A stretch of 64,000 nt of DNA from Nonlabens sp. (lineage in GTDB: Bacteria; Bacteroidota; Bacteroidia; Flavobacteriales; Flavobacteriaceae). The DNA is taken from NCBI GenBank assembly GCA_020630715.1, contig JAHDIQ010000004.1, positions 1 to 64,000 of the forward strand, in the 5' to 3' direction. Below are positions 14,014 through 34,133 of this stretch, piece after piece; the stretch's first letter is position 1; every line of letters begins with the position of its first letter. Both the position numbers and the translations under genes were made by a program. The notes below the pieces were generated by a model. That model worked only from the letters and a program-made list of their open reading frames with translations, made no database searches and had not been told where the DNA came from.

Positions 14014-14433
14014 ATGAAAAAAGTTTATTTAACCTCTTTATTACTAGTGTTATGTGCAACGGTATATGCTCAAAAAGATTACAAAAAAGAATTGTCTGAA
14101 CCCATGGTAGAAATGATCGATGGTGAGCATGTTATTGAGGAATTTATGATCATAAAATCAAAAGGAAAGTCAAAACAACTTCATTTAAGATCACAGATGC
14201 CATCAGATTGTATCGTTCACAAGGATAATTTAATAGCAATTACTACGATGTTTATGACTAAACTGAGTGATGAAATAGGTGGCGAAGTAGAAGATATAGA
14301 TAGTCTTATAGGTGAAGCAGATATGATTATAAAAATATATGTAACTAACGACGGAATGCAGATTGCTATGAGCGCTGAAGGAGAGACTAAAAGAGAAACG
14401 CTTAGCTGGAAACAATTTTATGAAGAAATGTAA
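14014..14433 (+). CDS. Hypothetical secreted protein
   Basis: Signal peptide MKKVYLTSLLLVLCATVYAQ; no recognised domain. Confidence 0.6.
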   Translation: MKKVYLTSLLLVLCATVYAQKDYKKELSEPMVEMIDGEHVIEEFMIIKSKGKSKQLHLRSQMPSDCIVHKDNLIAITTMFMTKLSDEIGGEVEDIDSLIGEADMIIKIYVTNDGMQIAMSAEGETKRETLSWKQFYEEM

Positions 14434-14455: not shown

Positions 14456-17400
14456 ATGAGCGCTTTTAAATTCCTAGAGTCTGATTATCCACAGTTGTAT
14501 GTTATTGCAGAGCTTTCTGAACAACTGATTCATGTGGATCCTAGCTCGTCGTTGTCTAAGACTCGTTTGCTGGCTGAAAAGATGTCTCAATTGATTTGGG
14601 ATTTTGAGCAAATGGGTGATTTTAATGGCACTCAATTGGATAGGCTCAATAGATTGGCTTATTCAAATGTTTTACCAGAGGTTATTGAAGGTATTTTTCA
14701 TACCATTAGAAAATCTGGAAATCAGGCAAGTCATTCTGGAACTGGATCTTTTGAACAAGCTAAGTTTATTCTTAAAAAAGCCTTCAAACTATCGAAATGG
14801 TTTTATGAAACCTATGAAAACGATTTTCTTGAACTAGCAGCATATGAATTACCAGTAGTGGTTGATGAACGTGCTCATGAATTGCAAGGTCAATTAGATT
14901 TTTTAGAACAACAACTTCAAGATTATAAAGCTAAAATTGAAGAACTTAATCGTTCTAAAGAAGTTCAGGAGACTCGTAAATCACGTGCCAATAAAAGCGC
15001 GCGAAATATTGATCTTAACGAGCACGATACTAGAATACTTTTAATTGATCCAGCACTTAAAAAAGCAGGTTGGGAAGTAGATACAGATTTACTGAATTAT
15101 AAAACCCATAAAACACTTCCAGAAAAAGGCCGCAACATGGCAATTGCCGAATGGTACTGCGATGGGAAATGGACAGATTATGCTTTGTTTATTGGAACTA
15201 CTCTTTATGGCATCGTAGAAGCAAAAAGATACCGCAGTGATATTTCAACCGATTTAAGACAGTCTAAAATTTATGCAGAACGTGTTACAGATGCTCAAGA
15301 TATTGAGTTGTTAGGCAATTGGAATACTTACAAAGCACCATTTCTATTTAGTACAAACGGAAGAGCGTTTTTAAAACAACTGAAAACTAAAAGTGGTATT
15401 TGGTATCTAGATATCAGAAAAAAAGACAATCACGCTACTGCCTTAAAAGGATGGTTTTCACCTCAAGGTCTTGTAGAATTATACGAGCGCGATATAGATG
15501 AATCTAACAATCGATTAGAGAAAAGCGATTATGATTACCTAGCAGATAAAACAGGACTTTCACTACGTGATTACCAAATCGACGCCATTAAAAAGGTCGA
15601 GAAAAAAATTATAGAACGACCAGAAGAACAACGTTCTTTATTAGTCATGGCAACTGGAACCGGTAAAACCAGAACGGTAATTGGCCTTTCTTACCGACTC
15701 ATAAAATCAGATCGATTTAAACGCATTTTGTTTTTGACAGATAGAAGAATGCTCGCTACACAAGCGATAGGGAACTATCAAGATAACAAGATTGAAAACC
15801 TCAATACGTTTGCAGATGTTTACCAGCTAGAAGAATTAAAAGACACCACACCAGATGGTGAGACGCGATTGCATTTTGCTACCGTACAAAGTATGGTAAA
15901 ACGATTATTTTATAATGAAGATCCTTTACCTATAGATAGTTATGACTGTATCATCATTGATGAAGCACACAGAGGCTATAATCTAGATAAAGAAATTGAT
16001 GAAGACGACTTAAGTTTTAAAGATCAAGATGATTATGTGAGTCAGTACAAAAAAGTGATTGAGTACTTTAATGCTTACATCATAGGTTTAACAGCAACAC
16101 CAGCTTTACATACCACTCAAATTTTTGGAGAACCTGTGTTTAGTTATTCTTACAGACAGGCCGTTCTTGATGGTCACTTGATTGATTATGAGCCACCATA
16201 TAACATTAAAACCAAACTCAATTCAGAAGGAATAGTTTGGAAAAAAGGAGAACGTCCTAAAGCCTATAATCCAGAAACTGGTAAAATTGAAGAACTAGCC
16301 GCACTAGAAGATGAGTTAAAGTTTGAAATAGATCAATTCAATAAATTAGTGATTACAGAGCCGTTTAATCGCGCGGTGATCCAACAACTGGTACAGATTA
16401 TTGATCCTGAAAGTGAAGAGAAAACACTCATTTTTGCCGCTAGGGATTCTCATGCAGATTTAATCGTGAAAATATTCAAGGAAGAATTTAACGAGATAGG
16501 ATTAGCAGTAGAGCAAGGCACTATTGAAAAAATAACTGGAAATGTATATGATCCTCAAGAGTTAACGACGCGTTTCAAGAACGAAAAATTTCCAACTATT
16601 GCGGTAACAGTAGATCTATTAACTACAGGAATAGACGTACCTAAAATTACCAACCTTGTTTTTTTAAGACGTGTGCGTTCTCGTATTCTTTATGAGCAAA
16701 TGGTAGGTCGCGCGACTAGAAAATGTGACGAGATTAATAAAGAGGTTTTTAGAATCTATGATGCCGTGCGATTGTATGAAGCGCTAGAAGATTTTATACA
16801 AATACGTCCTGTGTCTGATCCACGTATATCGTTCCAGCAACTAGCTGAGGAAATGGAGCATATCGATAATGATGATCGTGCACAACGCCAGATGCAAAAA
16901 ATCATTGCAAAATTTCAGGTAAAGAAACGCCAGATCGATAAAGTAGATCGCAATGAAGAACTGCAATACAATGCTCAAGGTAAAACGGCAGATGAGCTAC
17001 TCAATGTTTTTAAGAAGGCACAAGGCAGTGAAGTAGCAGCTATTATAAAAGAGTATGGCAGTTTATGGAAATTTCTAGATCAAAAGTTTACTAGACCTGG
17101 CATGCAAATGGTGGCAGAACAAGAGGACGAGTTCATAGCCATGGAACAAAAATTTGGTGAGGCGCAAAAGCCTGGCGACTATATAGAAAGTTTCAATCAT
17201 TACATCGCGACACATCGCAATAAGGTGCTGGCTATTAAAACCATATTAACCAGTCCTAGTGCTCTAAACCGCGCATCGCTTAAGGAATTAAAGTTCATGC
17301 TGGATCAAGATGGCTTTAACGAGCGTTATTTAAATGCCGCATGGCGACAGTCTAAAAATGAAGATATCGCAGCAGATATTGTAAGTTACATTAGAACCGC

Positions 17401-17668
17401 TGCACTGGGAGAAGCGCTGGTTTCTCATGAAGACCGTATTAAGTCTGCTTTTGCGAAAGTGAAACAAACCAAAAACTTTAATGCCTTACAACTAAAATGG
17501 CTCAAACGTTTTGAAGCACAAATGCTAGCCGAAACCGTATTAACTAAAGAAGATCTGGACAAAGAACCTTTTAAAAGTGATGGTGGCTTTAATAGAATTA
17601 ACAAACAGTTTCAAGAAGAGGTAGAGCAAGTCATAGACGCTATTAATAATCAATTATATACTGCATAG
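14456..17668 (+). CDS. hsdR: Type I restriction endonuclease R subunit (DUF4145-like N-term, HSDR_N nuclease, DEAD helicase)
   Basis: WTDYALFIGTTLYGIVEAKRYRSD (nuclease), MATGTGKTRTVIGLSYRL, IIIDEAHRGY, VGRATR. Confidence 0.95.
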   Translation: MSAFKFLESDYPQLYVIAELSEQLIHVDPSSSLSKTRLLAEKMSQLIWDFEQMGDFNGTQLDRLNRLAYSNVLPEVIEGIFHTIRKSGNQASHSGTGSFEQAKFILKKAFKLSKWFYETYENDFLELAAYELPVVVDERAHELQGQLDFLEQQLQDYKAKIEELNRSKEVQETRKSRANKSARNIDLNEHDTRILLIDPALKKAGWEVDTDLLNYKTHKTLPEKGRNMAIAEWYCDGKWTDYALFIGTTLYGIVEAKRYRSDISTDLRQSKIYAERVTDAQDIELLGNWNTYKAPFLFSTNGRAFLKQLKTKSGIWYLDIRKKDNHATALKGWFSPQGLVELYERDIDESNNRLEKSDYDYLADKTGLSLRDYQIDAIKKVEKKIIERPEEQRSLLVMATGTGKTRTVIGLSYRLIKSDRFKRILFLTDRRMLATQAIGNYQDNKIENLNTFADVYQLEELKDTTPDGETRLHFATVQSMVKRLFYNEDPLPIDSYDCIIIDEAHRGYNLDKEIDEDDLSFKDQDDYVSQYKKVIEYFNAYIIGLTATPALHTTQIFGEPVFSYSYRQAVLDGHLIDYEPPYNIKTKLNSEGIVWKKGERPKAYNPETGKIEELAALEDELKFEIDQFNKLVITEPFNRAVIQQLVQIIDPESEEKTLIFAARDSHADLIVKIFKEEFNEIGLAVEQGTIEKITGNVYDPQELTTRFKNEKFPTIAVTVDLLTTGIDVPKITNLVFLRRVRSRILYEQMVGRATRKCDEINKEVFRIYDAVRLYEALEDFIQIRPVSDPRISFQQLAEEMEHIDNDDRAQRQMQKIIAKFQVKKRQIDKVDRNEELQYNAQGKTADELLNVFKKAQGSEVAAIIKEYGSLWKFLDQKFTRPGMQMVAEQEDEFIAMEQKFGEAQKPGDYIESFNHYIATHRNKVLAIKTILTSPSALNRASLKELKFMLDQDGFNERYLNAAWRQSKNEDIAADIVSYIRTAALGEALVSHEDRIKSAFAKVKQTKNFNALQLKWLKRFEAQMLAETVLTKEDLDKEPFKSDGGFNRINKQFQEEVEQVIDAINNQLYTA

Positions 17669-17672
17669 TCCA

Positions 17673-18959
17673 TTGAATAGAATAGTATTAATAGGTAACG
17701 GCTTTGATCTCGCGCATGGGATGAAAACCTCATATAATGATTTTATAGAGTATTTGTGGGAAGATATTCTTAATGAGGTTAAATCTAGTGGTAAACTAAC
17801 TGTGGATAATGATTTATTTAAGGTTGCTGGACACCAAGGGAAGCAAGGGGAATTAGATAAAGACTTTCCAGCGAAACTTAAAATAGAAAGGTTGTTTAAA
17901 ACTAGATCTTTTAATAACGACTTTTTCAAAAAAATAGTAGAATGTCAATACATACAAGGTTGGGTAGATATTGAAAAAGAATTTTACATAAGATTGACAG
18001 AATGTTATAAAATAGATCAACAGCAAAAAACTGATGCTAGTAGAAATCAAATCGATAAATTGAATGCTGAATTTAAGGTTATTAAGAATAAATTAAATCA
18101 ATATTTAATTTCTATCGAAGAAAAGTTTAAAGAAAAGTATACGGGTGAAAAACCTGAATCTTGGAAACATAGAAAATCTATAGGTTCTAAAATATATAAA
18201 CGAGCAAGGCTAAAAGACTTTTCTGAAAACTACATCAATCAACGTGCGGTAGAAAAATTTAATCGATTTAAAGTAACTTTTGAAAGTTTAAAATCAGAGA
18301 AAATTGAAATTTCAGATTTAGAAGAAACTGATCAAATTTTTGTCGCTAATTTGAAAGGTGATTTTTCAATAAATGGAATTCGTAATTATCTTCTTACTGA
18401 AGATATGAATGGTGTCAAATATGTTCCAGTAAAACAATCATTATTACTCAGTTTCAATTATACTGCTACCACTAATTTTTACCAGCATTCGGATGTTTAT
18501 GTAAGTTTTCCAAAAGAAAAACCAGCATATATTAAACCTATTCACATCCACGGTTCTATTCATAAAGAAGACGACAATCCTATCATCTTCGGCTACGGTG
18601 ATGAGTTGGATGATGATTATTTAGAAATCGAAAAACTAGATGACAACCGCTACTTAGAAAATATTAAGTCTGTCAAATATCTAGATCGTGATAATTATAA
18701 AAGGCTTCTTGAATTTGTGAATAGTGATCAATATCAAGTAGTGATTATGGGGCATTCTTGTGGTAATTCAGATAGGACCTTACTTAACACTTTATTTGAA
18801 CATGATAACTGTGTTTCTATCAAACCTTATTATCATCAAAAAGAAGATGGAAGTGATAATTACAGCGATATTATACGCAATATTACTAGAAACTTTAATG
18901 ATAAACAGAAACTGAGAGATCGTGTAGTGAATAAACAATATTGTGAACCACTACTTTAA
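17673..18959 (+). CDS. AbiH-family abortive-infection protein
   Basis: IVLIGNGFDLAHGMKTSYNDFIEYLW; FNYTATT; VVIMGHSCGNSDRTLL. Confidence 0.9.
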   Translation: MNRIVLIGNGFDLAHGMKTSYNDFIEYLWEDILNEVKSSGKLTVDNDLFKVAGHQGKQGELDKDFPAKLKIERLFKTRSFNNDFFKKIVECQYIQGWVDIEKEFYIRLTECYKIDQQQKTDASRNQIDKLNAEFKVIKNKLNQYLISIEEKFKEKYTGEKPESWKHRKSIGSKIYKRARLKDFSENYINQRAVEKFNRFKVTFESLKSEKIEISDLEETDQIFVANLKGDFSINGIRNYLLTEDMNGVKYVPVKQSLLLSFNYTATTNFYQHSDVYVSFPKEKPAYIKPIHIHGSIHKEDDNPIIFGYGDELDDDYLEIEKLDDNRYLENIKSVKYLDRDNYKRLLEFVNSDQYQVVIMGHSCGNSDRTLLNTLFEHDNCVSIKPYYHQKEDGSDNYSDIIRNITRNFNDKQKLRDRVVNKQYCEPLL

Positions 18960-18968
18960 TTTAATTAC

Positions 18969-18982
18969 GCTTTCGCAAAAGC
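18969..18982. repeat. Near copy of dispersed palindrome (GCTTTCGCAAAAGC)
   Basis: One mismatch to GCTTTCGCGAAAGC; flanked by TTAC...GAAAACA. Confidence 0.9.
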
Positions 18983-19022
18983 GAAAACAAAATAAAATAG
19001 CACCTATTAAATATGATATCAA

Positions 19023-19099
19023 ATATCGCGATATGCAATATTTAGATGACTATGTGACAATATAAAGAGAAAATTAGATTATATTGCATATCGCAATAC
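19023..19099. promoter_or_regulatory. Inverted repeats (ATATCGCGATATGCAATAT ... ATATTGCATATCGCAATAC), candidate autoregulatory operator
   Basis: 19-nt arms at 19023-19041 and 19081-19099, ending 7 bp before the HTH gene start codon. Confidence 0.65.
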
Positions 19100-19106
19100 G
19101 CAATAA

Positions 19107-19640
19107 ATGAAGAATAAAACAATATTGAAACCGCAGGATATAGTGATTTTGTTAAAGATAGCGCTGCTAGGTGAGCAGTCATGGTTGCAGCAATCACTCG
19201 CTCAAGATTTACATATAAGCCAGTCAGAGATATCTGAGTGTATCTCTAGGTCTAAGTATGCAGGATTGCTCAACGCAAGTGGTAAGAAAGTAAATATGCT
19301 TAATTTCTTAGAGTTACTAGTGCATGGAGTAAAGTACATATTCCCGCAACGTCCTGGAGCGATCGTTAGAGGTATGCCTACGGCACATGCGGCTGCACCG
19401 CTTAATAGTAAAATAGTGAGTGAAGAGATTTATGTATGGCCTTATGCTCGCGGTACCCTACAAGGACAGTCTATAGAACCTCTTTATAAAACAGTGCCTC
19501 AAGCAGCGCTACAAGATGATAAACTTTATCAAGCACTGGCATTAATAGATGCTATACGTGTAGGTAAAGTAAGAGAACAACAACTGGCTATAGAATTATT
19601 AAAAAAACAACTCGCTCATGGCACAGGACTCGCAGCTTAA
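19107..19640 (+). CDS. HTH DNA-binding protein, putative antitoxin partner of the downstream nucleotidyltransferase
   Basis: LAQDLHISQSEISECISRSKYAGLLNAS helix-turn-helix; overlaps the NTase CDS by 23 bp. Confidence 0.7.
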   Translation: MKNKTILKPQDIVILLKIALLGEQSWLQQSLAQDLHISQSEISECISRSKYAGLLNASGKKVNMLNFLELLVHGVKYIFPQRPGAIVRGMPTAHAAAPLNSKIVSEEIYVWPYARGTLQGQSIEPLYKTVPQAALQDDKLYQALALIDAIRVGKVREQQLAIELLKKQLAHGTGLAA

Positions 19641-20307
19641 TCTTGAAGTGGTAGCGCAAGTAGCTGCAGCACTGGGTGATCTTAATGATCAGGTCGTTTA
19701 CATAGGTGGCGCGGTCATAAGTATTTATGCCACAGAACCAGGAGCAAACTTGCCTCGTGTGACTGATGACATAGACGTTTGTGTACAGGTTTCTACATTT
19801 GCTCAAATGGAATCATTGCGAGAACAACTGGCTGGTAAAAAGATCTATCCAGATCCTCAAGGAGTTCATTTGTATCGTTACCGCTATCAAGGAATTGCGA
19901 TTGATTTTATTCCTTTTGAAGAAACCGCTTTTGGACCTACTAACTCGTGGTTAAAAGCAGGATTTGATAAAGCTTTTAAAACCACTATTGGTGATGTGGA
20001 AATCGCTGTGTTGCCCGTTTCGCTATTTCTAGCTACTAAGTGGGAAGCCTTTAATAGTAGAGGTTCTGATCCTAGATATAGTCACGATTTTGAAGATATC
20101 ATATACGTCTTAGATAATAATAAGGAAGTAGTAATAGATACAACTGATGCAACTGCACCGTTAAAAGATACCTTGAAAAAAATGAGTGCTTTTATATTGG
20201 AACATCCTAATAGTGAAGAGATTATAGAATGTCATATTAATCAAACCACGGCTTTGGAACGTGGCGCATTTATTACAGCAACACTTCAGGAAATTTTAGA
20301 GCTTTAA
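19618..20307 (+). CDS. Nucleotidyltransferase-fold protein (AbiEii/MNT-like), putative toxin
   Basis: YIGGAVISIYA...RVTDDIDVCVQV (GG and DxD motifs); KWEAFNSRGSDPRYSHDFEDI. Confidence 0.75.
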   Translation: MAQDSQLNLEVVAQVAAALGDLNDQVVYIGGAVISIYATEPGANLPRVTDDIDVCVQVSTFAQMESLREQLAGKKIYPDPQGVHLYRYRYQGIAIDFIPFEETAFGPTNSWLKAGFDKAFKTTIGDVEIAVLPVSLFLATKWEAFNSRGSDPRYSHDFEDIIYVLDNNKEVVIDTTDATAPLKDTLKKMSAFILEHPNSEEIIECHINQTTALERGAFITATLQEILEL

Positions 20308-20334
20308 AATAAATAAGAGGATTATAATGATTAC

Positions 20335-20348
20335 GCTTTCGCGAAAGC
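20335..20348. repeat. Dispersed palindrome GCTTTCGCGAAAGC
   Basis: Exact copy. Confidence 0.95.
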
Positions 20349-20407
20349 GAGAACACAACAAACCACAGTTAACTATTAACTGATAACCATAAAACAGAGA
20401 ACCGAAT

Positions 20408-21904
20408 ATGAGCGCAGATGAAATTGCAAATAAATTATGGAACTTATGTAACGTCTTAAGAGATGATGGTGTGACTTATCACCAGTATCTCAATGAGTTG
20501 ACTTACATTTTGTTCTTAAAACTGACTGAGGTTAAGGATTTTGAAGAACATATACCAGAGGAATATCGCTGGCGTGGTTTTGTAGAAGAGCACGATAATA
20601 ATGAGGCGTTTGAACGTTACAAGAAATTTCTGGTTAGTATATCTGGTGTAACGACCAGTCCTAGTATTAAAGAGATTTATAATAATGCGAGTACGAGTTT
20701 ACGCAAACCGGTCAACTTTAATACGCTGGTACAGTCCATAGAGAAACTGGACTGGTATGAAGAGAGTGATCGCGATGTGATGGGCGATATTTATGAGAGC
20801 TTGCTCGAGAAAAATGCAGGCGAGAAAAAGAGTGGTGCCGGACAGTATTTTACACCACGACCATTGATTAATGTCATGGTAGAATTACTAGCGCCAAAAC
20901 TGGGCGAGCGATGGAACGATCCTGCGGCTGGAACTTTTGGCTTTATGATCGCGGCAAATGATTATTTGCGCAGCAAGTACAACGACTATTATGCACTTCA
21001 AGATAAAGATCGTAAATTCCAGAAAGAACAAGCTTTTAGCGGTGTAGAATTGGTAGGTGATGCACATAGACTAGCCTTAATGAATGCGCGATTGCACGGT
21101 ATGGAAAGTGAGATCATACTAGGCGATACGTTAACAGAGATGGGTAAAAACCTAAACGGTTATGACGGCGTGCTAGCAAATCCACCATTTGGCACAAAGA
21201 AAGGCGGCGAGAAACCTACCAGAGACGATTTTACCTTTCCTACCAGTAACAAGCAGCTTAACTTTTTACAGCATATCTATAGAAGTTTAAAGAAAGATGG
21301 CAAGTCACGTGCCGCAGTCGTGTTGCCCGATAATGTACTCTTTGAAGATGGCGATGGACAGAAGATACGTCGCGACCTCATGGATAAATGTAACCTACAT
21401 ACCATATTAAGATTACCTACAGGAATCTTTTATGCCGCTGGTGTAAAGACTAATGTGCTCTTTTTTACCAGAGGTAAAACAGAGAAAAACAATACTAAAG
21501 GTATCTGGTTCTATGACATGAGAACTAATGTTCCTAATTATGGAAAACGCACACCATTTACCAGAACTGCTTTCGCAGATTTTGTAAAAGCCTACACAGG
21601 CGGCAAAACCCTAGACGACCTAGAGAAAAACTATGATGGAACGGTAGATCATAAAAAACGAAAGGCTTTTCTAGAGCACAAATTATCTTCCTCTCCGCTG
21701 GAGAGGACCGAGGAGAGGTTGAATTACATCACCAGAGAACTCATCGCCTCAAAAAACGACAGCTTAGATCTAGGCCTGATCGCAGACGACAGCGTGAGCA
21801 AAGCCGAAGACCTGGGCGAACCAGTAGAAATTGCAACCGAAGCCCTAAACGAACTCAACGCCATTCAAAAACAACTGAAGGCGATGATAAAAGAATTAGG
21901 CTAA
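20408..21904 (+). CDS. hsdM: Type I restriction-modification DNA methyltransferase M subunit
   Basis: AGQYFTPRPLI, DPAAGTFGF, GVLANPPFGTKKG. Confidence 0.97.
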   Translation: MSADEIANKLWNLCNVLRDDGVTYHQYLNELTYILFLKLTEVKDFEEHIPEEYRWRGFVEEHDNNEAFERYKKFLVSISGVTTSPSIKEIYNNASTSLRKPVNFNTLVQSIEKLDWYEESDRDVMGDIYESLLEKNAGEKKSGAGQYFTPRPLINVMVELLAPKLGERWNDPAAGTFGFMIAANDYLRSKYNDYYALQDKDRKFQKEQAFSGVELVGDAHRLALMNARLHGMESEIILGDTLTEMGKNLNGYDGVLANPPFGTKKGGEKPTRDDFTFPTSNKQLNFLQHIYRSLKKDGKSRAAVVLPDNVLFEDGDGQKIRRDLMDKCNLHTILRLPTGIFYAAGVKTNVLFFTRGKTEKNNTKGIWFYDMRTNVPNYGKRTPFTRTAFADFVKAYTGGKTLDDLEKNYDGTVDHKKRKAFLEHKLSSSPLERTEERLNYITRELIASKNDSLDLGLIADDSVSKAEDLGEPVEIATEALNELNAIQKQLKAMIKELG

Positions 21905-23244
21905 TGGCAAAGCAATTACCAAAAGGTTGGGTGGAGACTCTATTAGGAAATGTTACTACTATTATAACGGGAAATACTCCTTCTAAGAAAATTCCCGAAT
22001 ATTATGGAAACAAATATCCTTGGGTAAAACCAGCTGATGCTAATCGAGAAGAAGTACTTGATTCATCAGAGGAATACTTATCTGAGCTTGGTTCAACTAA
22101 AGCTCGAATGTTACCAGTTGGTGCTGTAATGGTTACTTGTATCGGTAATTTAGGAAACGTAGCTATTGCAGGTGTAACATGTGCTACCAATCAACAAATA
22201 AATAGCATTGTAGATTACACGGAAAAGCTCAATTCTAAGTTCTTGTTTTATTATGCAAAACGACTGAAACCATGGTTGATTGATAATTCAACATCTACAA
22301 CAATATCGATGGTTAATAAATCAGTTTTTTCAACCGTACCTTTTTCATTTCCACCACGAGCAGAGCAAGACCGAATTGTGGCAAAAGTAGATGCGTTAAT
22401 GGCGCAACACGCTGCGATACAGCAATCTATGGAGCGTATTCCACAACTCTTAAAAGAGTTTAGGCAGCAAGTGCTCACTCAAGCGGTGACTGGAAAGCTG
22501 ACTGAGGAATGGCGTGTTGGGAAAGAGTTGGAAGGATGGGAAGAAACCAAAGAGAGAAAAAAGTATCGAGAATGGATTTTGAAGCTACCTTTAAAATGGA
22601 AAATGTTACCGTTTTATTCAGTGGCTAACATTGATGCAAACCTAGTAGATCCAAATAAATATTTGGATTATGTCTTAGTGGCTCCAAATCATATTGAAAA
22701 GTTAACAGGTCAACTTATAGAAAAAGTATTGACTAGAGACATTAAGCCTAAAAGTGATAAGCATCTTTTTAAAGCAGGCTCAATTGTTTATTCAAAAATA
22801 CGGCCTTATTTATCAAAATTGATTTTAACTGATTTTGACGGATTATGTAGTGCAGATATGTATCCTATTTCTTCTGAAATTAATATTCATTATTTATTTC
22901 TCTTTATGAAATCAGCTGAGTTTTTAAATTTTGCCACAACAGCTGGAGAAAGAAGTGTTTTACCAAAAATAAATCAAAAAGGATTAAATCAAATTCCAGT
23001 TCCAGTACCACCACTTCAAGAACAACAAGAAATCGTTCGTCGTGTAGAAAGCTTGTTTGAAAAAGCTACGGCTATTGAGCAGCGTTATGAGCAGTTAAAA
23101 TCACAAATAGACAGCTTACCACAAGCCATTCTACACAAAGCCTTTAAAGGTGAATTGGTACAACAACTAGATAGTGATGGTAGTGCGAGTGAGTTGTTGA
23201 AGGAGATTGAGGAGATGAGGATGGATAGTAAAAAGAGAAAATAA
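21904..23244 (+). CDS. hsdS: Type I restriction-modification specificity S subunit
   Basis: Two TRD-type halves (LPKGWVETLLGNV..., LPLKWKMLPFYSVANI...), conserved coiled-coil spacer and ILHKAFKGELV. Confidence 0.95.
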   Translation: MAKQLPKGWVETLLGNVTTIITGNTPSKKIPEYYGNKYPWVKPADANREEVLDSSEEYLSELGSTKARMLPVGAVMVTCIGNLGNVAIAGVTCATNQQINSIVDYTEKLNSKFLFYYAKRLKPWLIDNSTSTTISMVNKSVFSTVPFSFPPRAEQDRIVAKVDALMAQHAAIQQSMERIPQLLKEFRQQVLTQAVTGKLTEEWRVGKELEGWEETKERKKYREWILKLPLKWKMLPFYSVANIDANLVDPNKYLDYVLVAPNHIEKLTGQLIEKVLTRDIKPKSDKHLFKAGSIVYSKIRPYLSKLILTDFDGLCSADMYPISSEINIHYLFLFMKSAEFLNFATTAGERSVLPKINQKGLNQIPVPVPPLQEQQEIVRRVESLFEKATAIEQRYEQLKSQIDSLPQAILHKAFKGELVQQLDSDGSASELLKEIEEMRMDSKKRK

Positions 23245-23245
23245 A

Positions 23246-25201
23246 ATGAAAAGTCTAGACAATTTTTATAAACTGAGAAAGGATTTTATGATTATCGGTC
23301 TTACAGGAAAGATAAGATCTGGCGCAGATTTATTTGTGGATATTCTAACTCAACCTAAATTGAAAGATGAACAACTAAAGTTTATAAAAGAATTTCAAAA
23401 AATCTATCCAAATATTAGCGATAGTGAATCTAGAAAATTGAGACGTATAACTGATTTTTTTAATGCAGAAAATAATTGGGTTCAATTTGAAGTGATGGAC
23501 TATAGAAGTGTTGTTTTACTATTCATCTTGAATTATTGCTACGATGAAGATATAACCACTTATTTAGATAACCTTAGTGAGTGGATTATAGAATTGGGTA
23601 GTTATAAAGATTTTGAATATCCAAGATTTGGATCAGATAAACTCCATGAAATTTCAAAAGGAAGTAAAGAGTATTTAAGAAATGAATTCAAAGAAGAAAT
23701 TAAAACAGCCTTAGAAAGTCTGGATGTTAATTTTACTGAATCATCATTAAGTTCTTTTTTGAAAAAGGATTCCACTAATTTCTTTTTTACTGAGGCCTTT
23801 AAAAACTTAAACGATACAATCTTTAAAAGTTTAGATAGTTTTAGTCCATATTTAAGATATAAATTAATACACGTAACTGCATATATACTTCGAAGATTTG
23901 GAACTATTAATTTAAATAAAATTAAGAAAGACAATCCTATATCAAGCAACTTAAATTATATCTATACTATCGCCGATGTAATAAATAGACTGATAAAGAA
24001 TAATAGAAAACATAACGGAAGTGCGCATATCATCATAGATAGATTGAAAAATTCCTACGAGTTGATGTATTTTAAGGAGAAATATGGTGGCTTTTATATG
24101 GTAGGAACAAATTCAAAAAACAATGTTTCCTATGAAAGAATAGAAGAGAAATATATGTCCTATGAGTGCAGGACTGATTTAGAATTGAACAAAAAATTTA
24201 TCAAGGAATTAGACGATGTAGAGTATAAAGTAGATGAGTTTAAAGCAGGGTTATTTGAAGGTTTTGACGTAGAAAACTGTATGCAAAAAGTAGATTATCA
24301 TACATATCTGTCTAAATCATATAACTTAGATATTAGCATAGATACCTATAAAAATGCTGCCGATTTAATTAAGAATGATCATATTCCTAGAACTAATGAA
24401 TTTTATGTATACACGCCATTTCTAATTCAAATTCTGAAATTAATTGCTTTAATTCAGCAACCAGGTTTAATTGTTCCTACTTACATAGAGCGTATAATGC
24501 AAACAGCGCATATTGCTAAACTAAATTCAGGTTGTATTTCGAGACAAGTTGGAGCAGTCGTAACAGATTCTCATTTTTCGGTTAAGGGGATTGGTTGGAA
24601 TGAAGTGCCATTAGGGCAAATACCTTGTTCTTTAAGAGATATTAGGGATTTAGAAGACTCTAATGTTTCAGGCTTTTCAAACTTTGAAAAAGGAAACACG
24701 AAACATGTTTATGATGACGGAGAGAGTTTTAAAACTAAAATTTCAAGAAATTATGATCGAGTTTCAGCAAATTTAGATGAAAAGCTATCTGGAAGACCAT
24801 GTTCTATTTGTTTTAAAACGTTTCACAATGAGTATGAAGGTGTTAAAAATCAGGTTCACACTAGATCTTTACATGCAGAAGAAAATGCCATGCTTCAAAT
24901 CACAAAATATGGAGGGCAAGGATTAGAGAATGGAAACCTATTTACTACAGCTTCACCTTGTGAATTATGTTCAAAAAAAGCGTTTCAACTTGGTATAAAA
25001 AACATTTTTTACATAGATGAATATCCAGGAATATCTAGAGATCATATTCTTCATGGTGGCAAAGACTTGAAGAAAAACCCAAATCTTTTTCAGTATCAAG
25101 GAGCAATAGGTAGAGGATATCAGAGACTATACAAACCATTCATGTCTATCAAAGATGAAACTGTTCTCAGATCTGGTATTAAACCAAATAAGAAGGATTA
25201 G
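23246..25201 (+). CDS. AvcD/DCD-like defense protein: N-terminal NTPase-like domain and C-terminal (deoxy)cytidylate deaminase domain
   Basis: N-term IIGLTGKIRSGADLF (degenerate P-loop-like); C-term SLHAEENAML and TTASPCELCSKKAF zinc-deaminase motifs. Confidence 0.8.
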   Translation: MKSLDNFYKLRKDFMIIGLTGKIRSGADLFVDILTQPKLKDEQLKFIKEFQKIYPNISDSESRKLRRITDFFNAENNWVQFEVMDYRSVVLLFILNYCYDEDITTYLDNLSEWIIELGSYKDFEYPRFGSDKLHEISKGSKEYLRNEFKEEIKTALESLDVNFTESSLSSFLKKDSTNFFFTEAFKNLNDTIFKSLDSFSPYLRYKLIHVTAYILRRFGTINLNKIKKDNPISSNLNYIYTIADVINRLIKNNRKHNGSAHIIIDRLKNSYELMYFKEKYGGFYMVGTNSKNNVSYERIEEKYMSYECRTDLELNKKFIKELDDVEYKVDEFKAGLFEGFDVENCMQKVDYHTYLSKSYNLDISIDTYKNAADLIKNDHIPRTNEFYVYTPFLIQILKLIALIQQPGLIVPTYIERIMQTAHIAKLNSGCISRQVGAVVTDSHFSVKGIGWNEVPLGQIPCSLRDIRDLEDSNVSGFSNFEKGNTKHVYDDGESFKTKISRNYDRVSANLDEKLSGRPCSICFKTFHNEYEGVKNQVHTRSLHAEENAMLQITKYGGQGLENGNLFTTASPCELCSKKAFQLGIKNIFYIDEYPGISRDHILHGGKDLKKNPNLFQYQGAIGRGYQRLYKPFMSIKDETVLRSGIKPNKKD

Positions 25202-25203
25202 TA

Positions 25204-27054
25204 ATGATAGAATTTGAAGATTTTGAAGATCTTATAAAAAAAATCGAAAATAATTTAGGTAATGATTTTAATAACAGATTTCGATTTATAAGAAAAGAAT
25301 TAAATAAAAGTAAAAAATTACCAAATCGGCAGATTTTGACTCAGTTTGATCAAAATAAATCGGAATGGGTCTATAACTATGGTGGGAAAAAGGAAATACA
25401 ATATCATTTATTTCTTAGAGATAACGTCCTAGGTTACGGTCTTGGAATTAATAGTCAACGTGGATCTTTCAATAATGATGATCCAGCCGCGACCGCAAAT
25501 TTAATTGGTGCTAGTTTTAAACAAAATTTCAAGTTGATATGTAAAATTTTACCTAATTATCATTTTGAAATTGGTTCATATGATCAATTGGGATCTATGA
25601 AAGAAGGAGAATTTATTCTTTTTGGAAATACAGTTAAAGTATCTGAAACTAACACCATAAAGAAGGCGGATTTCAATACAATTATTTATGATTTGACCGA
25701 ACAATTAAAAGCATACAGGCTAATCTTTAAAAAAAATGTCGAAATGAAATTGAATCAAAAAAATCTAACTAACCATATGGGTAGGATTATGGAGTTTGAA
25801 AAATTACTTTTAAATAAAAAACAAATCATTCTACAAGGTCCGCCAGGAACTGGTAAGACACGACTTGCTAAGGAGATAGCACACCAACTTATTTTTAATA
25901 AGCAAGCAGCATCTGATAAGGAGCAAAAAGTGGCTTTGTCAAGTTCTGAGCAATTTAAAATTGTTCAATTTCATGCGTCATATGGTTACGAAGATTTTGT
26001 TAGAGGTATTTCAATTGAGAATATCGACGGTAATATTATTTATGAAACTAAGAATAGAATACTAGGAGAGATCGCTTCAAAAGCAAATAGAAACTTTCTT
26101 CAAAGCAATGAAGATTTAGAAACATCTTATCAAGAACTTTTTTTAGACCAAGCATTTGATGAATTTGTAGCAGAAATAGCTGAAGAAACTGAAGGTGACA
26201 ATAAATATGAATTAACTGATAATATTTCGATTGTTAGTATAGACGAGGATGCCTTTAGATACAAAGGAGGAAAAGGCTGGTCAGAAAATGGAAACAGAAT
26301 GAAGTTTGCTGATATAAAGCAGGCTTTTAAAGACGGTAATATAAATAGACAAGACGTCAAAAAAAATAGAAATCTTGCACGGCTGGCTAACTGGCACTCT
26401 AGCTATTACGTAAGAGTGTTAAATGACTTTCAGAAATATTGGGATAATAATCTGGTGGAGAACGAAAAAGAGGACGAACAATCCAAAGTAGATGTCAAAA
26501 ATTATGTACTCATCATTGACGAGATTAATCGTGCCAATTTATCTTCTGTTCTAGGAGAATTGATTTATGCATTAGAATATCGAGGTGAACCTGTAGAAAG
26601 TCTTTATGATTTAAAAGGTAAAGGAAGGGAAATTGTATTGCCAGATAACCTATTCATCATAGGAACCATGAATACCGCAGATCGCAGTGTAGGACATATT
26701 GATTATGCGATACGCAGGCGTTTTGCTTTTGAGTCGGTACTTCCTCAGGATTTAAGTGGTCAGTTGGAAAGTGGTTACGCTTTTGCAAAAGATGAATTTG
26801 AAGAAGTGAAAGCTCTATTTGTAAACGATATCACCTTAGGATGGGATAATTCAGAACTTAAAAAATCTATACATTTATCAGACGAGTTTGATCCTAAGGA
26901 CGTTTGTATAGGTCATAGTTATTTTATTCATAAAGATGATGAAGATATCTCTCAACGTATGACGTATGAAATCAAACCTATACTAGAGGAATACATTAAG
27001 GATGGAGTTTTAAAAGAAAGCGATGCATTACGAACAGCATTAAAAGAATTGTAA
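25204..27054 (+). CDS. McrB-like AAA family NTPase
   Basis: LQGPPGTGKTRLAKEIAHQL, IIDEINRANLSSVLGELIYALE, IIGTMNTADRSVGHIDYAIRRRFAF. Confidence 0.92.
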   Translation: MIEFEDFEDLIKKIENNLGNDFNNRFRFIRKELNKSKKLPNRQILTQFDQNKSEWVYNYGGKKEIQYHLFLRDNVLGYGLGINSQRGSFNNDDPAATANLIGASFKQNFKLICKILPNYHFEIGSYDQLGSMKEGEFILFGNTVKVSETNTIKKADFNTIIYDLTEQLKAYRLIFKKNVEMKLNQKNLTNHMGRIMEFEKLLLNKKQIILQGPPGTGKTRLAKEIAHQLIFNKQAASDKEQKVALSSSEQFKIVQFHASYGYEDFVRGISIENIDGNIIYETKNRILGEIASKANRNFLQSNEDLETSYQELFLDQAFDEFVAEIAEETEGDNKYELTDNISIVSIDEDAFRYKGGKGWSENGNRMKFADIKQAFKDGNINRQDVKKNRNLARLANWHSSYYVRVLNDFQKYWDNNLVENEKEDEQSKVDVKNYVLIIDEINRANLSSVLGELIYALEYRGEPVESLYDLKGKGREIVLPDNLFIIGTMNTADRSVGHIDYAIRRRFAFESVLPQDLSGQLESGYAFAKDEFEEVKALFVNDITLGWDNSELKKSIHLSDEFDPKDVCIGHSYFIHKDDEDISQRMTYEIKPILEEYIKDGVLKESDALRTALKEL

Positions 27055-27057
27055 TTA

Positions 27058-28329
27058 ATGCTGACTTTACCAGAACAATATAATTATGGTGATGGAGAAG
27101 ATATTCTTTTATCTGAAGAAGTGCTTTCGATTAAAAAGGAGGACTTTGACGAAGATGTGAAACATATTTTTTTAGCTAGTAAAAACTTGTGTTTTAGTCT
27201 CAATAAAACAGAACAAGGTTACCGAGCTGAGACTTCTTATTACATAGGAATCGATCACATAGGGAATACAGGTGAAGTGATTCATGTACAACCTAAACTA
27301 GATAATGAACATCGAAAGATTGATTACTACAGCGTTTTAGAACAAGCCCTTTCTGGTGAATTAAAACCTGGAGAAACTAAAGGCTTGTTTGAGATAAAAT
27401 TTAATCAGCCGTTTATAGAAATAGATCAAAAACAGGATTACCTATCTCCATTGCTATTTACTCAGTTTTTACATCTATTAAAGAGCATTGTAAATAAAGG
27501 GTTGCGTAAATCTTATTACCGTGTAGAACGCAATATGACGGCAAAGGTAAAAGGAAAGATTCTAGTAGGAGCAACTATAAGAAGCAACCATGTTCATGGC
27601 CGTATAGATCGCACGATTTGTTCTTTTGAAGAATATGGATTGGATCATTTTGAGAATCGGTTACTTAAAAAGGCATTACAATTTGTGTCGGCAAATTTAC
27701 ATTCCCATAAAGCATTCAAATCACTTAGAAAGACGATAGCTTACTGTCGCCCTTCTTTTAGTAAAGTAAGTGAAACGGTAAATGAAAATCAAGTAAACAA
27801 CTTTAAAGTGAATCCGTTTTTCAAGGAATATGCAGCCGCTTTAAAATTAGCCAAGTTGATATTAAAACGTTATGGTTTTAAAATGGAAAATGCCACCAGT
27901 CAAAAAGTTTCTATACCACCATTCTGGATTGATATGTCTAAGATCTTTGAGTTGTATGTGTATCAACAGCTTAAATTAATTGATGATGGAAAGGCTAAGG
28001 TTTGGTATGAGCCAGTAGTTGACAGGTTAATACCTGATTTTTTAATTCAATCAGAGCATTTCACAGGTGTAATTGACGCTAAGTATAAACCTAGATATAA
28101 GACTAATAAAGTTGACGTTTCTGACTTTAGACAGGTGTTAGGTTATGCTAGAATGACTAAGGTTTATGATAAGCTTGAAATTGATCAAGAATCTCTGATA
28201 GATTGTCTCATTATATATTCAGATCAAGCTAATGATAGTGAGAACATTATTTTAAATGATAAGGTAGCAGAAACTAGCTATGTTCGGTTTTGGAAGTTGG
28301 GAATTAAGTTGCCAGAAAGTGATAATTAA
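27058..28329 (+). CDS. McrC-family 5-methylcytosine restriction subunit
   Basis: Follows McrB; PDFLIQSEHFTGVIDAKYK PD-(D/E)xK nuclease motif. Confidence 0.9.
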   Translation: MLTLPEQYNYGDGEDILLSEEVLSIKKEDFDEDVKHIFLASKNLCFSLNKTEQGYRAETSYYIGIDHIGNTGEVIHVQPKLDNEHRKIDYYSVLEQALSGELKPGETKGLFEIKFNQPFIEIDQKQDYLSPLLFTQFLHLLKSIVNKGLRKSYYRVERNMTAKVKGKILVGATIRSNHVHGRIDRTICSFEEYGLDHFENRLLKKALQFVSANLHSHKAFKSLRKTIAYCRPSFSKVSETVNENQVNNFKVNPFFKEYAAALKLAKLILKRYGFKMENATSQKVSIPPFWIDMSKIFELYVYQQLKLIDDGKAKVWYEPVVDRLIPDFLIQSEHFTGVIDAKYKPRYKTNKVDVSDFRQVLGYARMTKVYDKLEIDQESLIDCLIIYSDQANDSENIILNDKVAETSYVRFWKLGIKLPESDN

Positions 28330-32550: not shown

Positions 32551-33498
32551 TTAAACATCAGCATTCAGTCTTTTATACCTTTCTTGTAAAATGTTGATGT
32601 AGTTAGTCTTCATTTCAGAGGATAAAAATGACGCCTGAATTAATTTGAAAGCTTTAGGACTATTTTTATTGAATCTTGAGAAAACGCCTTCAATTTGCTT
32701 TTTATTAAGTCCCAATTGGATACCAAATTCTTCGAAATTAGATTTAGTAATTTTTTTCTTTTTACCTAATAGACTTAACGCTAATTCCTCAGGATCCTCT
32801 GGATTTACTATAGTGACGTTAAGTAAATCATAAGCAGGAGATAATGCCCACCCATAATTCATTTTAATCATTGCGAAATTTTTAAGGTGCATATCATTAT
32901 TTCCAGTAATGAAGGAGAATACGGTAAGTTCAAAAAGGTATAACTTATCTAAAAGTGTGTTGCTGGTATATTTTCCTAGCGCTGTGCCAACACGTTCCAT
33001 CGAACTTTTGTATTTATCAAAAGCCTCAGTAATTTGAAACATATCAAGCATGTGTATTTTAGAACCATCGGGATTTCTATCGATACGTTTTGTTATGTAC
33101 GATAGTTCTCCTGATTTTAAACGTATTAAAGATGATGGAACAACATTAATTCCGTATGCTTGTGCTATTCGCATTGTTAGATGTTCGTTTTCTGGCATTT
33201 CAGCAAAGGCACTATTAGGTGGTTTAAATATATAATTTCCACCTAAAGCTCCTACCACAGTAAGTCTATGTTTTCTATCTTCTTGTTTATCATTAAATAG
33301 ACTCATAGATAACTTAGGTTGTACTCCTGGCACGGATATGCTTCTTAATACGACGTCCTTTGCGAGTTTATGCATTTCATCTAAAGAGTAGTTAAGTTCG
33401 GGAACTTCTTCAGTACCAAAAAAATCTAAAGCACAGAGCTTATGAAAATCGTTTCCTTGACCTATTTCCTTATAGCAATAGAGACAGTTATTCATCAT
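32551..33498 (-). CDS. HipA/HipT-like Ser/Thr kinase with N-terminal CxxC...HxxC motif
   Basis: VGALGGNYIFKPPN, ITGNNDMHLKNFAMI, LSPAYDLLNV; N-term CLYCYKEIGQGNDFHKLC. Confidence 0.9.
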   Translation of the reverse strand: MMNNCLYCYKEIGQGNDFHKLCALDFFGTEEVPELNYSLDEMHKLAKDVVLRSISVPGVQPKLSMSLFNDKQEDRKHRLTVVGALGGNYIFKPPNSAFAEMPENEHLTMRIAQAYGINVVPSSLIRLKSGELSYITKRIDRNPDGSKIHMLDMFQITEAFDKYKSSMERVGTALGKYTSNTLLDKLYLFELTVFSFITGNNDMHLKNFAMIKMNYGWALSPAYDLLNVTIVNPEDPEELALSLLGKKKKITKSNFEEFGIQLGLNKKQIEGVFSRFNKNSPKAFKLIQASFLSSEMKTNYINILQERYKRLNADV

Positions 33499-33823
33499 CT
33501 TGATTCATTATAGATTCTACGCTCACGGCTCCAATACAGTTTTTACAACAAGCTAATAATAAACCCATTCTGTCATTAGGATTAATTTTCCAATTTTTAG
33601 TTGCTATATCTAGTAACCAACCTTCTGGGATAAGACCTTCAAAAAATGGGAATAGCCTATTTTCTTTATACAATGTATCATTAACAGGCATACTAAATGT
33701 TATAAAGGATTCAGGATAATTGGCTATATAGTCTTCGTTATATTGATAGGTATAATATCCATCATCTGTTTCTGTTAGTATTCCTGCAAGAATAGTGTTA
33801 TAAAAAATTTTAGCCTGTCTCAT
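33488..33823 (-). CDS. HipS/HipA N-terminal-subdomain protein
   Basis: AGILTETDDGYYTYQYNEDYIANYP...FPFFEGLIPEGWLLDIATKNW. Confidence 0.9.
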   Translation of the reverse strand: MRQAKIFYNTILAGILTETDDGYYTYQYNEDYIANYPESFITFSMPVNDTLYKENRLFPFFEGLIPEGWLLDIATKNWKINPNDRMGLLLACCKNCIGAVSVESIMNQDDE

Positions 33824-33829
33824 TTATTA

Positions 33830-34030
33830 TCATTTGTTTATAATGGGAGCTGCAATAAGTTGATGTCCAAACATTTTTAAAACTAGGTTTACTTTCTCCA
33901 TATTTAGATTGGTTTTTCCTTGTTCAATTTTTCTAACTACTGTTAATGCGACACCAGTGCGTTCAGCAAATTCTTCCTGCGTTAAGCCTACGGCTTTCCT
34001 TTTAGTTTTGACTAATTGTGCTAAATTCAT
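33830..34030 (-). CDS. HipB-like XRE-family HTH regulator
   Basis: MNLAQLVKTKRKAVGLTQEEFAERTGVALTVVRKIEQGKTNLNMEKVNLVL; start moved from 34081. Confidence 0.9.
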   Translation of the reverse strand: MNLAQLVKTKRKAVGLTQEEFAERTGVALTVVRKIEQGKTNLNMEKVNLVLKMFGHQLIAAPIINK

Positions 34031-34133
34031 TTTATATGTATTTAGATATAAATATCTTACAAAGATAGCAATTATATGCAATTAAATATAATATAAAGTT
34101 ATTTTCACTTTTTATATGTTTAAAGATATAAAT
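34031..34133. promoter_or_regulatory. Duplicated palindromic operator-like sites upstream of hipB-like gene
   Basis: TTTATATgtatttagATATAAAT at 34031-34053 and TTTATATgtttaaagATATAAAT at 34111-34133 (20/23 identical). Confidence 0.65.

Follow-up and report, generated by a model that had tools for sequence, protein, structure and literature searches.

Across Enterobacteriaceae, the enteric immigration control region (ICR) holds type I restriction-modification (R-M), type IV restriction and toxin-antitoxin (TA) genes in varying combinations (PMC12707154). Comparable insertions are described elsewhere: the type IV pair TgvAB, embedded in a type I R-M cluster of the Vibrio cholerae pathogenicity island VPI-2, gives protection (PMC11411939), a type I locus of enteropathogenic Escherichia coli (EPEC) carries DarTG2 under the repressor RptR (PMC12255303), and in PrrC-EcoPrrI the effector gene is embedded in the type I locus (PMC12707154). 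In the AvcID system of V. cholerae, the avcI RNA gene is separate and lies 5' of avcD (PMC10511110). Here we describe a nine-gene locus of Nonlabens sp. (Flavobacteriaceae), located in a stretch of 64,000 nucleotides (hereafter the window; assembly GCA_020630715.1, contig JAHDIQ010000004.1, positions 1 to 64,000), in which hsdR, hsdM and hsdS are combined with AbiH, a helix-turn-helix (HTH) protein, a nucleotidyltransferase (NTase), a deaminase and McrBC. On the evidence of the genes present, their intact motifs, the conservation of position, the quick exchange of modules and the conserved operator-like sites, we consider with a probability of about 0.78 that this is a modular, ICR-like flavobacterial operon with swappable cassettes, whose modules would be largely independent.

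The window combines type I and type IV genes in the ICR-like order hsdR-M-S-x-mcrB-C, which in E. coli K-12 MG1655 is found as hsdR-hsdM-hsdS-symE-mcrB-mcrC on one strand. To place it, 80 orthologous loci were collected via HsdM and joined by the window and a locus of the same-genus genome G311; 43 Bacteroidota loci were readable past hsdS, and 24 non-Bacteroidota orthologous loci formed the comparison group. McrBC was present in 21/43 Bacteroidota compared to 1/24 non-Bacteroidota loci (Fisher p 1e-4), a Septu-like PtuA/PDC-M62A gene in 24/43 compared to 1/24 (Fisher p 1e-5), and any gene in the hsdR/hsdM gap (slot A) in 21/43 compared to 1/24, while an AvcD-like gene was seen in 3/43 of the Bacteroidota loci. 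The conserved layout is hsdR-(slot A)-hsdM-hsdS-(slot C)-mcrB-mcrC, with the Septu-like or AvcD-like gene of slot C between hsdS and mcrB in 16/16 loci having both a slot-C module and McrBC. An independent start from McrC, which was found in 27/201 Flavobacteriaceae genomes, gave 25 informative loci, and in 14 of these McrBC lies on the same strand and 3' of hsdM-hsdS, against a background of ~0.8% (p about 1e-23; counted from the neighbourhood map). These results support the view that type I operons with mcrBC at their 3' end are a recurring arrangement. Defence genes generally cluster, and the modules here turn over rapidly, as would be expected if the genes had accumulated by chance in an ordinary defence island without any rule of position; the slot order kept throughout, the excess of McrBC adjacency and the same order in E. 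coli make such an accumulation highly improbable.

Within this layout the gene content changes quickly. McrBC, PtuA and slot A showed 14, 13 and 14 state changes on the HsdM tree compared to 14.6, 14.4 and 14.5 for shuffled labels (sd 1.7-1.8), figures that are approximate because the tree was built quickly from 43 rows and 11 of its forks are weak; to this approximation, module turnover is too quick to leave phylogenetic signal on the HsdM tree. A preliminary description of the locus had proposed that the nine genes are a fixed arrangement acting as one layered system (restrict unmodified DNA, restrict modified DNA, deplete nucleotides, abort). The close packing of the five genes at the 3' end would agree with this proposal, as would the closest downstream match, the Aequorivita locus L063, with the order hsdS-AvcD-264aa-mcrB-mcrC. 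The survey of Bacteroidota neighbourhoods for the same gene order found the full nine-gene set nowhere else, however, the two closest loci, both from the same genus, carry different subsets, and module presence is indistinguishable from random relative to the HsdM tree. The case for one system came down to adjacency, and we regard a fixed layered system as very unlikely.

The two same-genus loci show how the window differs from its closest relatives. BBFL7 (G308, L030/L053) has hsdR-abiH-hsdM-hsdS and then a Septu-like pair, and G311 (L031) has hsdR-HTH-NTase-hsdM-hsdS and then a deaminase-HATPase fusion. HsdR of the window is 95% identical to that of BBFL7 and 87% to that of G311, and HsdM 92% and 88%, respectively; HsdS is only 37-38% identical to either, so its specificity probably differs. 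An 83% identical abiH gene occupies the same place in BBFL7 and the G311 locus is without abiH; the window thus holds both slot-A cassettes, of which BBFL7 and G311 have one each. The HTH and NTase genes overlap by 23 bp and form one two-gene unit, so that the ~2.7-kb separation of hsdR from hsdM, correctly reported before as holding extra modules, is refined to a gap with two cassettes, AbiH and HTH-NTase. Slot A of other loci contains Fic-RhuM, GIY-YIG, PD-(D/E)XK, OGG-like genes or a GmrSD pair.

The HTH-NTase cassette lies exactly between two 33-nt direct repeats that are 88% identical (Table 1), where BBFL7 has a single copy of ATTACGCTTTCGCGAAAGCG between abiH and hsdM. The palindromic repeat ACGCTTTCGCGAAAGCG at 18964, 20330 and 30063 has 26 both-strand matches in the window (0 expected), and its core is dispersed genome-wide with 465 one-strand matches; repeat-mediated recombination of the cassette is consequently plausible from the sequence, with chance also conceivable. 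Some of these observations weigh against the modular reading: the turnover figures are approximate, one repeat per gap could be chance given the number of copies in the genome, and the 1-3-bp spacing from hsdM to mcrC, together with the stable slot order, could mean functional coupling and not convenience.

All nine co-directional genes are present as + strand open reading frames (ORFs) at 14456-28329, and family searches match every name given in the preliminary description, whose TAATG overlap of hsdM and hsdS at 21904 is also correct; the gene identities bear out a defence island based on a type I R-M locus (Table 1).

Table 1. Features of the nine-gene locus, with positions in the window.
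Feature	Position	Strand	Basis or remark
hsdR, type I restriction subunit, 1070 aa	14456..17668	+	DUF4145 N-terminus, DEAH helicase, EcoEI_R_C
abiH cassette (slot A), 428 aa, 29% GC	17673..18959	+	TTG start, Pfam AbiH 1.1e-26
33-nt repeat ATTACGCTTTCGCAAAAGCG..., left border of HTH-NTase cassette	18964..18996	+	direct repeat
two operator-like palindromic sites ATATCGCGATATGCAATAT ... ATATTGCATATCGCAATACGCAAT, 5' of HTH gene	19018..19103	+	cross-species motif counts
HTH protein, PDC-M21A, 177 aa, likely autorepressor	19107..19640	+	PADLOC 9e-51, alignment
NTase, PDC-M21B, 229 aa, AbiEii/MenT-like fold	19618..20307	+	PADLOC 2e-37, alignment, model
33-nt repeat ATTACGCTTTCGCGAAAGCG..., right border of HTH-NTase cassette	20330..20362	+	direct repeat
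hsdM, N6-adenine methylase, 498 aa	20408..21904	+	Pfam N6_Mtase 1.4e-68, NPPF motif
hsdS, specificity subunit, 446 aa, two target-recognition domains	21904..23244	+	Pfam Methylase_S 8e-41, two stretches
AvcD-like long (d)CMP/dCTP deaminase (slot C), 651 aa	23246..25201	+	PADLOC dCTPase 1e-103
mcrB, AAA+ GTPase subunit of type IV restriction, 616 aa	25204..27054	+	PRK11331 7e-33, PDB McrB 5e-30
mcrC, PD-(D/E)XK nuclease subunit, 423 aa	27058..28329	+	Pfam McrBC 9e-35

HsdR matches PRK11448 at E=0 and EcoEI_R_C at 7e-37, and the catalytic motifs are intact (DEAH and GTGKT in HsdR, NPPF in HsdM); the predicted helicase, N6-methyltransferase and two target-recognition domains identify hsdR, hsdM and hsdS as a type I R-M system. 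The AbiH match of 95 bits is above the Pfam cut-off of 30.9, and abiH starts with a TTG, 4 bp 3' of hsdR, that the BBFL7 ortholog also uses. McrB shows GPPGTGKT, DEINRA and NTADRS, and McrC the PD-(D/E)XK motif of the D-x13-DAK type (DFLIQSEHFTGVIDAK), as expected of an McrBC type IV enzyme. The N-terminal ~200 aa of McrB (25204-25803) gave no Pfam match and no homolog among neighbour proteins, and are possibly an undescribed modified-base reader. From hsdR to mcrC the intergenic gaps are 4, 147, -23, 100, -1, 1, 2 and 3 bp, and per-gene GC (guanine plus cytosine) spans 29% to 42%. The single transcript proposed earlier for hsdM-hsdS-deaminase-mcrB-mcrC fits the spacing (-1 to 3 bp), from which it would be predicted. 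A sigma-70 promoter scan returned fewer promoter-like sites than the shuffled expectation, and terminator-like sites in a simple consensus scan were near it. A signal-peptide-like ORF of 139 aa (14014-14433) ends 22 bp 5' of hsdR, also on the + strand, and could be transcribed together with it. The left-flank gene was found in 2/23 and the right-flank gene in 11/23 genomes of the genus, with no clean empty chromosomal site, since the flanking genes are non-adjacent in G304, the sole other genome having both.

The HTH-NTase pair corresponds to the PADLOC candidate pair PDC-M21, with M21A (9e-51) followed by M21B (2e-37); a literature search on PDC-M21 found no paper. The window NTase matches Pfam AbiEii at 6.5e-4, which is under the cut-off for this member, and 13/13 members of its family match AbiEii at E<=0.05 (best 3e-10). 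The family alignment has invariant GG, D-x-D and third Asp residues, and the confident model (predicted local distance difference test, pLDDT, 92) has Foldseek likeness to JHP933 and MenT3/TglT, giving the protein the AbiEii-type fold and residues of the NTase of AbiE/MenT type IV TA systems. An AbiEi-type antitoxin partner was not found, as the window HTH had no Pfam match and no AbiEi match was listed among 14 members; other members of the HTH family gave weak winged-helix matches such as MarR_2. The palindrome test on a single locus is weak for the AT-rich HTH promoters, and cross-species motif counting was used instead. Two TATCGCRATA-type sites per region were found in 11/15 homologous HTH upstream regions compared to 8/1500 random 190-bp windows, a contrast that overstates independence as the 15 regions are related by descent. 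The HTH protein is likely to regulate its own gene through these operator-like sites. The conserved operator pair also suggests at least one promoter inside the nine-gene array, before HTH, which would probably divide the nine genes among more than one transcript.

Control by the HTH protein of the downstream block is also possible. Insertion of HTH-NTase could have brought hsdMS-deaminase-mcrBC under a promoter that the HTH protein represses, much as RptR or C proteins do, an idea that is compatible with the modular reading. The double operator-like sites directly 5' of HTH and the RptR precedent (PMC12255303) favour it, and no + strand terminator-like site was called between NTase and hsdM in the simple consensus scan; the palindrome at 20330 could, however, serve as a terminator, and the operator-like sites accompany HTH-NTase into loci without type I genes, which argues that their first role is autoregulation. 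We regard block control only as a tentative and rather unlikely addition. At 32551-34081 (- strand), a HipA-like gene and two small partners lie beside the transfer-messenger RNA gene (tmRNA), and HipA-like homologs (66-72%) directly adjoin a 72-74% identical HTH-NTase pair in genomes G036 and G139 (L034, L035).

The slot-C protein of the window is a two-domain protein with the catalytic motifs HAE and PCELC, as in AvcD and anti-phage dCTP deaminases; HAE and PCxxC are invariant in 9/9 long AvcD-like proteins aligned. It is similar over its full length, at 32-35%, to annotated anti-phage dCTP deaminases and scores 270 bits against an NCBIfam NF041025 equivalog cut-off of 400 bits, and is consequently filed as AvcD-like only. 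Its P-loop is degenerate (GLTGKIRSGAD), as it also is in L047, and an AlphaFold model of moderate quality (pLDDT 65) has its best PDB fold matches among dCMP deaminases. The gene starts 1 bp 3' of hsdS, and across nine loci no conserved non-coding element was seen 5' of the deaminase beyond hsdS coding homology, so that a separate upstream avcI gene does not fit; the 1-bp gap speaks against an AvcID type III TA system of that form. An Rfam search for an avcI-like RNA gave no match, and such an RNA could conceivably be encoded within the hsdS end. Two further deaminase contexts were noted: in G311 an Inv-AAD/dCMP deaminase fused to HATPase_c_4 (L031:11920-13398) lies directly 3' of hsdS and is another slot-C deaminase, and in L051 a long AvcD-like gene is arrayed with a prokaryotic Argonaute (L051:6060-8171 and L051:8930-10972; PADLOC pAgo 8e-287).

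The lack of space for a separate avcI-like RNA gene, and of a conserved upstream element, raises the alternative that the type I complex restrains the deaminase, perhaps also AbiH or the NTase, until a phage inhibits or degrades that complex, as EcoPrrI does with PrrC (PMC12707154). The type I link of these deaminases is enriched, with 4/11 independently found long deaminases in other type I loci (background 0.8%, p about 1e-6), and not exclusive, since 7/11 are outside a recognisable type I locus, which suggests that the deaminase can probably act without one; an RNA inside the hsdS end also remains conceivable. We consider such guarding unlikely in general, and rather doubtful in its specific form, in which the long AvcD-like deaminase would guard the R-M system, kept in check by the type I complex with which it is co-translated and not by an avcI RNA. 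If so, a phage that inhibits HsdRMS would set off nucleotide depletion, as with PrrC but with a deaminase as the effector.

In the modular reading, where activities, targets, transcription, autoregulation and additivity are predictions, the HsdRMS backbone would methylate self DNA and cut unmodified incoming DNA, while McrBC at the 3' end would cut DNA with foreign modification. Slot A and slot C would take independent defence cassettes, here AbiH and the probably autoregulated HTH-NTase pair in the former and, in the latter, the AvcD-like deaminase, whose predicted effect is depletion of dC nucleotides. Cassettes would be gained and lost quickly, in one case perhaps via recombination at the dispersed palindromic repeat, and the modules would most likely be complementary, largely independent layers that share their place in the genome and, in part, transcription. 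The order known from E. coli immigration control, type I R-M, then a toxin-like gene, then McrBC, thus reappears in Bacteroidota together with two defined cassette slots, and slot position can therefore serve to find untested defence genes. The operator-like sequence and the setting of the deaminase, which leaves no room for a separate antitoxin RNA gene, both lend themselves to direct tests.

Compared to the E. coli K-12 ICR (mrr, hsdRMS, symE/symR, mcrBC), which has the same strand and order with symE in slot C, the window belongs to another phylum, has a deaminase in place of symE and carries AbiH and HTH-NTase in the hsdR/hsdM gap; its spacing is tighter and its McrB N-terminus is unmatched. 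VPI-2 TgvAB likewise places a type IV enzyme in a type I cluster, with complementary targeting of unmodified and modified DNA, but is of GmrSD type instead of McrBC and sits within the type I cluster, not 3' of hsdS. The EPEC RptR-DarTG2 locus is similar in that a TA-like module lies within a type I locus alongside a small autoregulator that has palindromic sites, putative in the window, whereas RptR differs in size and operator (TAGCTA) and DarTG2 stands where the window has an AbiEii-like NTase. The deaminase shares HAE, PCxxC and full-length similarity with AvcID and anti-phage dCTP deaminases, and differs from AvcID in its 651 aa, a score under the NCBIfam cut-off, a degenerate P-loop and no room for a separate avcI gene. 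PrrC is an anticodon nuclease, unlike the window effector, for which guard behaviour is hypothetical. The HTH-NTase pair shows no protein-level difference from PADLOC PDC-M21, to which the operator pair is newly added here. Together, the E. coli K-12 order and the V. cholerae and EPEC precedents suggest that the window is a flavobacterial variant of a known architecture.

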